Source: Phycisphaerales bacterium (GTDB lineage Bacteria; Planctomycetota; Phycisphaerae; Phycisphaerales; UBA1924). From it: 64,000 nt of DNA. The stretch is taken from NCBI GenBank assembly GCA_020849105.1, contig JADLGW010000015.1, positions 1-64,000 on the forward strand. The letters are read 5' to 3'. Of this stretch, positions 25,999-56,503 are shown one piece after another. How positions within the stretch are numbered: position 1 is the first letter of the stretch; every line of letters starts with the position of its first letter. Under the pieces are notes generated by a model. That model saw only the letters and a program-made list of their open reading frames with translations. It searched no databases and was not told the DNA's origin. Position numbers and translations under genes: made by a program.

Positions 25999-26091
25999 CC
26001 AGGCTTCGGAGGTTCAGTGGCGACGAGGACTGTGCTTCTCGTTGGCGCCTTAGGCGCGATCACCCGACGGCCCGATCCTGGGTACCCCGCC

Positions 26092-26434
26092 TGGGTACCC
26101 CGCCACTCCGTGGCGGTCGGGACTTCTTGAGCACCCCTCCCGGGTACCCCGCCGCTCCGCGGCGGCTGAGACTTCTTGCGCACCCCTCCTGGGTACCCCG
26201 CCGCTCCGCGGCGGTCGGGACTTCTTGAGCACCCCTCCCGGGTAACCCGCCGCTCCGCGGCGGCTGAGACTTCTTGCGCACCCCTCCTGGGTACCCCGCC
26301 ACTCCGTGGCGGCCGAGACTTCTTGCGCGCCCCTCCTGGGTACCCCGCCGTTCCGCGGCGACCGAGGCTTCTTGAGTACCCCTCCTGGGTACCACGCCAC
26401 TCCGCGGCGGTCAAGATTCCTGTGCGCCCCGTGG
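26092..26434. repeat. 49-bp tandem repeat array, seven copies
   Basis: Units begin at 26092, 26141, 26190, 26239, 26288, 26337 and 26386, each exactly 49 bp; the last is degenerate after about 30 bp. Each carries GGGTACCCCGCC and a palindromic core CCGCCGCTCCGCGGCGG, then a spacer with ACTTCTTG. Units are contiguous with no spacers, so this is not CRISPR. A short extra GGGTACCCCGC sits at 26081. As 49 is not a multiple of three, a read-through frame would change each unit, arguing against coding. The unit resembles intergenic hairpin repeats. The rest of the gap (25999-26080, 26515-26653) shows nothing I can name. Confidence 0.9.
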
Positions 26435-26489
26435 CGGTCAAGCGCGGGTTCTCGGCTTGATCCGAGGCACCCCCGGAACAGGGGAGGCG

Positions 26490-26514
26490 CCGCCGCGGAG
26501 CGGCGGGGCACCCA
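26490..26514. repeat. Inverted single copy of the 49-bp repeat core
   Basis: The reverse complement of this segment matches the first 25 bases of the array unit (TGGGTACCCCGCCG... to CGGCGG) with one T/C change. It points opposite to the seven tandem copies, so the array and this copy could pair into a long cruciform or hairpin. Confidence 0.75.
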
Positions 26515-26670
26515 AGGATTCCGGCGCGTTCGTGCTTGACGGTCGCCGCGGCGTGTGCGATACTGGGCGCATCCTCCGGGCCGGGGCGTTCGCTCCGTGT
26601 GTACAAGCCCGGTATGGATGCACGCGGTGTCCGCACAAGAAGCGGAGGCGGCGATGAAGATTCAATTCAG

Positions 26671-26712
26671 GCGGTCAGCGGTCAGGCGGTCAGCGGTCAG
26701 CGGTCAGCGGTC
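26671..26712 (+). repeat. CGGTCAG heptamer repeat at a disrupted signal peptide
   Basis: Five consecutive units of CGGTCAG (two carry an extra G, giving 8 bp) and a partial sixth follow ATG 26654, which has a GGAGG-like site upstream. The frame from that ATG reads MKIQFRRSAV... and stops at 26720. The next gene's frame, read through the same DNA, gives a hydrophobic signal-peptide core. A change of minus one heptamer (or plus two) would join the two. This is the arrangement expected of slipped-strand phase variation or of a recent slippage mutation. Confidence 0.65.
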
Positions 26713-26753
26713 TAGGGCGTAGGGCGCTCTCGGCGCTGGCGGGGGTCGCGGCC

Positions 26754-28262
26754 ATGACAGCGGCGTGTTCGGGGCAGGGGCTCGTGGAACGGTGGAACGC
26801 GAAGGCGGACTCCTTGCTGGGCCACGCCGTGGCCGTCGGGTACCTGCCGATCGCGGAGGATGACGGCTATGTCTACACGTTCGGCGAGCAGAGCAACGGG
26901 CTCGACACGTCGGGCTATGTGCTCCGCCGCAACGACCTTCAGGACGGGGGCAACGCGATTGAGGATACCTGGCCGGTCTCGGACGACGCCGAACTGCGCA
27001 AGCCCGTCGGCATGGTCGTGATGCCGCGCTCGATCATTCCCGGGACGGAGGCGGAGCGCGAGCCGCTCATCATCGTGACCGGCACCGACCCGAACCAGGG
27101 CAGGGACGATATCGTCATCATCGCGTACAGCAAGGACCTGGCCATCCGCTGGATGAAGACGTACTCCAACGACACCGACGACAACCCGGTGGACGATGCG
27201 CCGGTGGCGATCATCGCGGATGACGGGAGCGACAGCCTGTACGTCGTCGGCTGGTCCGATTCCAACGGCGTGACCAGCACCAGCGGACGCGACACTGTGG
27301 TGCTGCATCTGCAGGCCGATGACGGCGACATGACCGTGATGGACCGGTACTCGTCGAGCGGAGCGCTCTCGGACGCCCCGGCCGGCGCGACGCTCGCGGG
27401 CGGACTGCTCTACACGGTCGGGACGACGGCGGGAGGCACCAACAGCACGCTCTTCTTCCTGAAGCACGACCCGCTGCAGAGCCCCGCCCGTGTCTGGGCG
27501 ACGACCCACGAGGACCCGGGCTACAACGTCGTCGGCGTAGGGATCGACGCGCTGGAGGTCGTGGGCGGTTACCACATCTACGCCACGGGGTACAAGGGGC
27601 CGACCGCGCTCGCGTACGCCAACGACTGGATCACGATGGCGGTCAACACGGACACCGGCGTCCTCCGGTGGATCACCAGCAACCTCGGGTTCAACATCCA
27701 GGTCTCCGGTGACGACCGCCCCGCGGACCTCGCGGGTGTCCATTACAAGACCGACCTGCCAAACGGATATGTCGTGGACGGCGTCGCGGTGACCGGGTAC
27801 ACCTACGACACAGGCAAGGGGAACCGGATGACCACGGTCCACTACAAGGACAACTGGGACTCGGCTGAACTCCGGTGGGCGATCGCCGAGGATGGCGCCG
27901 TATCGGGCGGTGATGACCGCGGGCTTCAGGTCGCGGCGCGACGTGCCGGCGGTTTCGGAAACCAGGGCTTCATCTACATCACGGGCAAGATCGAGGCTGC
28001 CACGGGTAACCATGACATCCTGACCGTCAAGTATGGTGCGTACAACCCGACGCTCTATCGCTGGCCCAAAGAGTATCCTCAGAGTGGCTCGGGTGATGGC
28101 GACGACATCCCGCTTGCGATCCGCCTCGACGAGGACGTCTACGACTCGGCCACGGGCTTCTACCTCCCCAGCCTGATCGTCGGCGGGATGGCGTTCGATG
28201 CCGTGGGCAGCGCCTCCGCCGAGGACCTGATCACCATCCGCTATGTGGACGTCGGACCATGA
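26754..28262 (+). CDS. Exported repeat (propeller-like) protein of unknown function; start disrupted
   Basis: The stated start (ATG 26754) gives 502 residues, beginning MTAACSGQG inside what should be a signal peptide; upstream in frame the DNA encodes RRALSALAGVAA. The likely native start is ATG 26654, one heptamer out of frame. The body has regularly spaced YVVG/YTVG/YVTG-type strands (LYVVGWSDSNG, LYTVGTTAGG, IYATGYKG, VAVTGYTYD, IYITGKIE), as in propeller proteins of exported bacterial surface layers. TAAC could act as a weak lipobox. The stop overlaps the next gene (ATGA). No enzymatic motif is seen. Confidence 0.8.
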   Translation: MTAACSGQGLVERWNAKADSLLGHAVAVGYLPIAEDDGYVYTFGEQSNGLDTSGYVLRRNDLQDGGNAIEDTWPVSDDAELRKPVGMVVMPRSIIPGTEAEREPLIIVTGTDPNQGRDDIVIIAYSKDLAIRWMKTYSNDTDDNPVDDAPVAIIADDGSDSLYVVGWSDSNGVTSTSGRDTVVLHLQADDGDMTVMDRYSSSGALSDAPAGATLAGGLLYTVGTTAGGTNSTLFFLKHDPLQSPARVWATTHEDPGYNVVGVGIDALEVVGGYHIYATGYKGPTALAYANDWITMAVNTDTGVLRWITSNLGFNIQVSGDDRPADLAGVHYKTDLPNGYVVDGVAVTGYTYDTGKGNRMTTVHYKDNWDSAELRWAIAEDGAVSGGDDRGLQVAARRAGGFGNQGFIYITGKIEAATGNHDILTVKYGAYNPTLYRWPKEYPQSGSGDGDDIPLAIRLDEDVYDSATGFYLPSLIVGGMAFDAVGSASAEDLITIRYVDVGP

Positions 28263-29689
28263 AGCGTGCGGCCTTCGTGCGATGCGCGACGGCGTGGGCG
28301 TGCGGACTTATGGCCCATGCCGTGGCGGCGCAGCCCTGCACGCCCTACTGGTCGCGCGTGGGCGGCGCGGGCGGCGACCCCCCGAATACGGCGGTGACAT
28401 TCTCGCTTGCGGCCTTTGATGACGGGAGTGGCCCCGCGCTCTACAAGACCGGGCCGCTCTGGTCTGTCCCGGGGGTTCCCAACGAGGGATGGCCGGTCTG
28501 CAAGTGGAACGGCGTGAACTGGGAGGCGATCGGGGCGGGTCTCCCGCCCGACGTTGACGCGGCGTCGTACCTCCAGTTGGCGAGACTCGACGACGGAGCC
28601 GGGGAACGTCTGTACCTGCTCGGGTTTCGTAACCCCCCCGGGCCTTCCTATCTGTACCACTTCGCCGCACGCTGGGACGCCGGCGCCTGGACCATGATGC
28701 CGCGTCAGTTCTGCTACAGCGGGGACAGCCCGCAGGGCCCGCCCCCCGGCTACGCCATCCCCGGGGGCAGTTGGGACGACGGTTCCGGGAGCGCGATCTA
28801 CGGCGTGCGGGCTCACGCACTGACCAATGAGGTCCACGTCGCCCGCTGGGACGGCGCGGGATGGACGGACATCGGGCCGCGGCTCGCAACGGTCACGCCC
28901 GAAGAAGCCCGCATCTTCTGCTGGGCGCACTACGACGACGGCTCGGGCGATGCGCTCTACATGCTCGGTCGCTTCCGGATGTTCCCCTTCCCCTCCGCCC
29001 CGTTCAACCTCGCCCGCTGGGACGGGGTGTCGTGGTCCAGCGTCGGCGGCGCGATCCCCAACAACCCGACCGCGATGGCCGTGTTCGACGATGGTTCCGG
29101 GGACGCGCTGTACGTCTCAGACTTCATCGTCGGCCACAGCACCCCGGGCCACGTCAGGAACATCGGCAGGTGGGACGGGCACACCTGGACCAGCATCGGC
29201 GCGTTCGGCGAGAAGACCTACGGCACCGGGACCGTCTACAGCCTGACCCCCTTCGACGACGGATCGGGGCCGTCGCTCTTCGTGACGGGCATCTTCCGCA
29301 CCGCCGCCGGGATGCCCAGCCGCGACATCGCGCGGTGGGACGGATCGTGGCACGCCGTGCCCCCGGGGCTTTCGTACTTCAACAACGCGACCGCGGTGTT
29401 CGACGACGGGCGGGGTCCATCCCTCTTCATCGGGGGTGACTTCCACACCGCCGGCGGCGGCGTGGCCCGCGGCCTTGTCCAGTACGTCGGCTGCCCGAAC
29501 TGCTACGCCGATTGCAACCGGGACGGCGCCCTCACCCTCGCCGATTTCGGCTGTTTTCAGACGAAGTACGCGATCGGCGACCCGTACGCCAACTGCAACC
29601 TGGACTTCAACCCGGGCTCCATTACCAACGGGCTGAGCGTCGCCGACTACATGTGCTTCCAGGCCAGGTTCGCGATGGGGTGCCCGTAG
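28259..29689 (+). CDS. Secreted seven-repeat DDGSG protein with dockerin-like C-terminus
   Basis: This 476-residue protein has a signal peptide ending near AVAAQ (25). Seven repeats carry the motif DDGSG followed by a strand such as ALYVSD: FDDGSGPALY, LDDGAGERLY, WDDGSGSAIY, YDDGSGDALY, FDDGSGDALY, FDDGSGPSLF and FDDGRGPSLF. This fits a seven-bladed propeller. The last 65 residues have two calcium-loop motifs, DCNRDGALTLADFGCFQ and a second with LSVADYMCFQ, as in planctomycete dockerin-like tails. It is coupled by ATGA to the upstream secreted protein. It is probably surface or matrix associated; its ligand is unknown. Confidence 0.87.
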   Translation: MKRAAFVRCATAWACGLMAHAVAAQPCTPYWSRVGGAGGDPPNTAVTFSLAAFDDGSGPALYKTGPLWSVPGVPNEGWPVCKWNGVNWEAIGAGLPPDVDAASYLQLARLDDGAGERLYLLGFRNPPGPSYLYHFAARWDAGAWTMMPRQFCYSGDSPQGPPPGYAIPGGSWDDGSGSAIYGVRAHALTNEVHVARWDGAGWTDIGPRLATVTPEEARIFCWAHYDDGSGDALYMLGRFRMFPFPSAPFNLARWDGVSWSSVGGAIPNNPTAMAVFDDGSGDALYVSDFIVGHSTPGHVRNIGRWDGHTWTSIGAFGEKTYGTGTVYSLTPFDDGSGPSLFVTGIFRTAAGMPSRDIARWDGSWHAVPPGLSYFNNATAVFDDGRGPSLFIGGDFHTAGGGVARGLVQYVGCPNCYADCNRDGALTLADFGCFQTKYAIGDPYANCNLDFNPGSITNGLSVADYMCFQARFAMGCP

Positions 29690-56087: not shown

Positions 56088-56503
56088 CATATGGAACATC
56101 TGATCTTTGGTCCCGCGACATGGATCCGGCGGGGTTGAGCGCCGGTTTCTGGGTGGCGCGAGCGCTCGTCGCCGGGCGTTCATTGCCCCCCGCATCTCAC
56201 GCCGCCCGCATCTCACGCCGCCCTGATGTCGCGTGGACAATGCTACGGATAGTGCCGCCCGAGGAGAATATCGATATTGACGGGCTTGTCGCGGGCCTAG
56301 ATATAATTATGATTGCTATTATTTTCGATAGCATAGACCGTGCATTTGGCAGACTGCGTCGACAACACCGCGCCCGCCGCGGCCTGTGCGTGTCCTGTTC
56401 CTATCCCATGGGCGTGATGCAGCTCTGTCCGGAGTGCGGTCAGGCGCGGCAGGCATTGAGTAAGTCACCGGATCCGATCATCCGCAGTGGGCCGAGGACC
56501 TAA
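56084..56503 (+). pseudogene. Fragmentary zinc-ribbon protein
   Basis: A GTG overlapping the hppD stop opens a 139-residue frame, but the first half looks like noise. A hydrophobic segment DGLVAGLDIIMIAIIFDSI (about 66-85) and a zinc ribbon CVSCSYPMG...CPECG near the end resemble the planctomycete small zinc-ribbon proteins. The DNA at 56270-56345 is markedly AT-rich. It is probably a decayed or truncated gene; an internal start at ATG 56237 is possible. Confidence 0.45.

Follow-up and report, generated by a model that had tools for sequence, protein, structure and literature searches.

A putative translational contingency locus in a Phycisphaerales bacterium: heptamer repeats within the signal-peptide code of a predicted secreted-protein gene

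The window analysed here, a 64,000-nucleotide stretch of a Phycisphaerales bacterium (GC 69%; contig JADLGW010000015.1, positions 1 to 64,000 of the forward strand), probably holds a translational contingency locus with Opa-like slipped-strand phase variation, present in the assembly in its OFF state. Repeats made of unrelated units recur at paralogues and homologues, as would be predicted for a contingency locus. Observations counted against a simple switch include too few in-frame copies, one-sided frame offsets, homologues that carry no repeat and repeats that mostly lie elsewhere.

The initial annotation had described a start codon running into heptamer repeats and then into a stop, and this layout was confirmed. 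ATG 26654 opens a 22-codon frame (26654..26722, + strand; MKIQFRRSAVRRSAVSGQRSRA) terminated by TAG 26720-26722. Inside it, a GCGGTCA tandem array, the proposed slippage tract, occupies 26671-26712 on the + strand (TRF, 5.9 copies, score 75) and consists of five exact copies followed by one variant copy, with an extra G ahead of two of the copies (GGCGGTCA). The array is short, with ~ 6 units that are not all identical over 42 bp. A perfect 7-mer repeated three times occurs at a single site of the window, and none of 100 first-order Markov simulations of the window contained one. This array was also the sole match in an SSR scan of the window; the same scan applied to another 400 kb of the genome returned five SSRs and no heptamers.

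The remainder of the signal peptide and the protein lie in another frame, as had also been proposed. Beyond the array this frame reads GRRALSALAGVAAMTAACSGQGLVER and continues through the ORF listed from ATG 26754; it was also read as GRRALSALAGVAAMTAACSGQ, running through the whole protein. Starting at 26658, the predicted secreted-protein frame stays open over 534 codons (26658..28262, + strand; P0001, 502 aa from ATG 26754), and the rest of the signal peptide, GRRALSALAGVAAMTAAC (26715..26768, + strand), comprises a basic n-region, a hydrophobic core and, judged by eye, a weak lipobox-like end. Neither a cognate nor a near-cognate start codon was found between ATG 26654 and the GRRAL codons, and the secreted-protein frame has no start codon ahead of the hydrophobic core. 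ATG 26654 and ATG 26754 are 100 nt apart (1 mod 3), so that removal of one unit, as originally suggested, or addition of two would join the frames. A repeat whose unit is not divisible by three thus lies in the 5′ coding region, and the ORF behind it is intact and would be restored by a change in unit number, two features by which SSR phase variation is recognised.

Searches of P0001 against Pfam, NCBIfam and PDB gave no match at curated or default thresholds, and a single-sequence structure model was discarded (pLDDT 33). The next gene (28259..29689, + strand) is also predicted to encode a secreted protein and weakly matches GC-type dockerins, which, like the GC content, is in keeping with planctomycetes. 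The stop codon of P0001 and the ATG of this gene overlap, so a switch may reach both genes by coupling. A CxPYW/dockerin-like secreted neighbour of the same kind also follows in G000 C41 and C27, and in G000 C17 the leader runs almost directly into a CxPYW/dockerin-like gene.

Positions 26520-26743 of the window represent one copy of a module that is repeated in the genome and consists of a promoter, a ~ 90-nt leader, a start codon, the array and a basic stretch. With 26520-28262 as query, 17 matches were obtained in the own genome; of the 16 apart from the window itself, 15 correspond to the part of the query that precedes the protein. A covariance model of the leader located 16 copies in this genome, against none in the 119 other family genomes; a search at the DNA level gave matches in 2 of 61 genomes, one of them the own genome and the other matching through 28 bases of array only, and viral contigs gave no match to a leader fragment. 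The array and the GRRAL codons are present in part of the module copies only, GRRAL being kept in one frame in five of them. All 39 exact pattern matches in the own genome lie behind the leader and make up nine arrays, each of them behind leader and start codon and ahead of a signal peptide or its remnant.

The sigma-70-type promoter-like site TTGACG-17-GATACT (26536..26564, + strand) is the only one within 26000-28400, and its TTGAC is invariant in 15 aligned copies. The predicted structured 5′ leader (26568..26653, + strand) would begin with a GCATCC/GGATGC stem and end in a hairpin bearing the Shine-Dalgarno sequence GGAGG (26644-26648). Its fold energy corresponds to a z-score of -3.4, with 2 of 200 shuffles equally stable. 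Covariation was limited to two pairs with two-sided change, a level reached by 85 of 500 shuffles (not significant), and the suggestion of an RNA structure therefore comes from the folding energy. The reading of the leader as a known riboswitch was rejected for lack of an Rfam match. Upstream of the module, a 49-bp tandem repeat with hairpin core GGGTACCCCGCCGCTCCGCGGCGG spans 26084-26412 (6.7 copies), and pieces of it also precede other leader copies. Elsewhere in the window, a 16-bp repeat (GCCGCCCGCATCTCAC) lies at 56185-56223, with a similar motif at the start of contig C22 (L065 start).

The proteins behind the arrays differ: the window protein (C15), a family shared by C13 and C16a, and a family shared by C34 and C61, in which BNR repeats and, at the end, a dockerin-like region were matched below the curated cut-offs. 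Between the -35 box and the ATG, C15 and C13 are 97% identical while their proteins are unrelated; over the same interval C34 and C61 are likewise 97% identical, with 52% of residues in common over 543 aligned codons and no frame break. The 5′ module is thus more similar between copies than the genes that follow, and it seems to have been exchanged by recombination between unrelated secreted-protein genes.

Four of these copies are followed by long ORFs (C15 534, C13 at least 460, C34 578 and C61 570 codons) that are open yet out of frame with the leader ATG, by 1 in C15, C13 and C34 and by 2 in C61, and none of the four has a cognate or near-cognate start between that ATG and GRRAL. C16a reads in frame into a full signal peptide, its ORF being cut at 169 codons. 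In the diverged copy C15:133643 (C15b), leader and ATG are retained, the repeats are degenerate with eight letters each, and the frame of the ATG continues for 678 codons, in support of the leader ATG as the true start and of the repeat-coded peptide as n-region. Among the remaining copies, C41 has an array in frame and fused to the 3′ third of a gene, with the signal peptide lost, C3 and C29 are out of frame and reach contig ends, the 15-unit array of C8 is directly followed by a contig end, and C23, C16b and C17 are leader remnants. C3 and C29 have near-identical flanks and were compared to see whether units had been gained or lost; the comparison was set aside, as their arrays differ by substitutions plus 1 nt rather than by a clean unit. 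At L013 (C41), L015 (C16b) and L014 (C23), leader or array directly adjoins the 3′ part of a paralogue, an arrangement that deletion of the signal peptide and most of the gene would leave behind.

The 5′ ends of homologues were drawn from mature-protein searches, which are neutral as to repeat presence. Homologues in three other genera carry repeats at the same place, either poly-G or one of three octamers. In the window-protein family, the own-genome C16 gene has G17 directly behind the signal peptide, three G020 genes have G14, G10 and G11, one G029 gene has G9 and the contig of another begins inside poly-G; signal peptides are plain and repeat-free in G008, G101 and G561, and two G474 matches are ambiguous at the 5′ end. 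Among relatives of the C15:133643 gene, one G003 signal peptide contains G9, and three G003 paralogues carry the octamers GCCCCCTC, GAGCGGAG and GGCGCAGN between start and hydrophobic core, G003 C2 being blocked by a TGA within a variant unit and not by frame. G066 of this family has a plain signal peptide and no repeat. Repeat-free homologues with plain signal peptides thus number four in other genomes, to which C58 of the own genome is added. Two long genes on G029 C13 have the same layout, the one with G9 (near 6.2 kb) in frame and the one with G11 out of frame; both fail the family profiles, so that the layout is common to them while homology is not established. At L242, L244, L247 and L241, the genes encode repeat proteins that are possible adhesins, with a weak SBBP match in one and, by eye, a region like the von Willebrand A motif (LVLDNSxS).

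The position of these repeats bears on where translation starts. If the array belonged to a short upstream ORF or a 5′ UTR, the protein would begin downstream, in the window at 26754, where an ATG is indeed present; in the three G003 octamer genes, too, an ATG stands directly before the hydrophobic core and could be their start. Such a start would deprive C15, C13, C34 and C61 of the basic n-region and of part or most of the core, and it is also opposed by the single frame in which five copies keep GRRAL and by the read-through from the leader ATG in C15b and C16a. We consider a downstream start improbable, and retain the leader ATG as the probable start of a split signal peptide.

A hand tally of intact SSR-bearing genes with a visible start comprised 15 loci, which are not independent: one is in frame, 13 are out of frame and one is stopped inside the array. 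For random array lengths one third would be expected in frame (binomial P(≤ 1) ~ 0.02, calculated by hand, with the loci not independent). The count includes C15, C13, C34, C61 and C16 G17 of the own genome, G020 C17, C24 and C34, G003 C11, C33, C36 and C2, and G029 C41, C13 near 34.6 kb and C13 near 6.2 kb (the in-frame gene); for the window locus itself the out-of-frame form alone was seen. For G020 C34, offset 0 belongs to the longest frame, which follows a TAA, and the frame adjoining the tract was scored +1 by eye. Excluded were C16a, C41, C3, C29, C23, C8 and C15b of the own genome, G029 C14 and C13 19957 (contig edge at the tract) and two matches judged spurious. Twelve of the 13 frame offsets correspond to one unit too many, at unit lengths of 1, 7 or 8, and C61 falls into the other class. 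This excess is not readily explained: OFF may be the common state, with slippage favouring unit gain, or a process other than DNA slippage may be at work. As regards the switch postulated in the initial annotation, the recurrence of the design at paralogues and homologues with unrelated units strengthens it, whereas the shortage of in-frame copies (1 of 15) weighs against it.

The same tally is relevant to programmed recoding, in which ribosome or polymerase slippage would join the frames and the DNA would be out of frame on purpose. The strong excess of one offset class, the near absence of in-frame copies and poly-G, a known slippery sequence, all agree with such a scheme. Heptamer and octamer arrays, however, have no evident slippery site, C61 carries the other offset, G029 C13 6244, C16a and C15b are in frame, and the frame reached on poly-G by ribosomal slippage of -1 would be the wrong one; we therefore attach little probability to recoding.

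Out-of-frame copies in the majority could also indicate decay, with a selfish or neutral heptamer spreading together with the leader module and leaving genes frozen out of frame as young pseudogenes. Visible damage in C16a, C41 (the 3′-third fusion) and the C23, C16b and C17 remnants is consistent with this, as is a heptamer that is widespread and mostly outside genes. On the other hand, the 13 frame-shifted genes, from four genera, remain open for 296 (to the contig end) to 908 codons, although a possible second frame break further down in G020 C34, seen by eye, weakens this point. Differing repeat units recur at one position, and C34 and C61 have kept their frame through strong divergence, even if their dN/dS of 0.6 indicates mild constraint only. 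On balance decay appears unlikely, and phase variation remains the preferred reading.

The distribution of the repeats is much wider than the module. GCGGTCA arrays were found in over 100 stretches from many phyla, including cyanobacteria, Streptomyces and Pseudoalteromonas (L094-L208), some of them reaching 18 units, and three exact tandem copies occurred in 5 of 298 genomes of the class, the own one included. Inspection of flanks at six class-genome loci and at 80 of 115 wider contig loci (L094-L173 of L094-L208) covered 95 arrays in 86 loci, behind which there were mostly short open frames. Poly-G tracts of at least 11 were present in 56 of 61 family genomes (G001-G084), some 30-50 nt long and some at contig ends, where they may be a sequencing artefact. 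The idea that poly-G generally marks signal peptides was rejected, with one clear case, the own-genome C16 gene, among 30 first tracts (one per genome). For tracts of at least 9 in the stretches sampled, a signal-peptide-like start upstream in the G sense was seen in 0 of 8 in G020, 6 of 29 in G029 (775 kb covered), 1 of 4 in G003 and 0 of 2 in the own genome, and in none of the four in the C sense; judged by eye, two of the seven G-sense matches looked spurious, and another two had already been known. The six in G029 include the two long C13 genes described above.

Poly-G at contig ends in other genomes, the draft state of the own genome (61 contigs) and the contig end directly behind the C8 array would be compatible with assembly or sequencing error in the repeats. 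A 42-bp array is, however, shorter than usual sequencing reads, and the same layout is found in nine own-genome arrays and in four genera, which leaves error a negligible probability.

Under the phase-variation reading, transcription would begin behind the promoter at 26536-26564, and ribosomes would initiate at ATG 26654 and translate across the heptamer array. The array is open in all frames, and hence its length alone sets the frame entered behind it. At the assembled length translation would terminate at TAG 26720 (OFF), while slippage altering the unit number would bring n-region and core into frame and allow a 500-aa protein to be exported (ON). The change would presumably be reversible and the product presumably located at the surface. 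More tentatively, promoter, leader, ATG, array and n-region may form a portable switch cassette that recombines between loci and places each under independent stochastic control, giving an Opa-like phasome that related genera might achieve via poly-G and octamers.

Should the arrays indeed switch, phase variation at multiple loci might extend in this lineage beyond the usual pathogens, with several repeat types converging on the signal peptide, and the switch could spread as a 5′ module, given the near-identity of this region in C15 and C13 ahead of unrelated genes. A literature search with most subscription journals outside its range found no paper pairing Phycisphaer- with phase variation, and nothing on the topic for Planctomycetota and phase-variable.

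In Neisseria opa, according to PMC3960869, CTCTT pentamers in the leader-peptide code of several dispersed loci produce translational ON/OFF switching. The arrays described here resemble opa in lying within the signal-peptide code, out of frame, at multiple dispersed loci. They differ in their 7-nt unit and lineage, in coming with a shared promoter and leader ahead of unrelated proteins, and in that switching here is putative; the likeness is one of design. In neuO of E. coli K1, too, heptanucleotide repeats occupy the 5′ coding region, although this is a single phage-borne acetyltransferase gene whose repeats fall within the enzyme and do not precede a signal peptide. Its AAGACTC heptamers give the ON state at a number that suits the frame, and the gene was OFF in 42 of 64 genomes (PMC13001214). 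Heptanucleotide tandem repeats are further recorded in PMC4692102 and PMC4679880 for cyanobacteria, Xanthomonas and Beggiatoaceae, where they are mostly intergenic, whereas the arrays of the present genome stand behind a leader and start codon.
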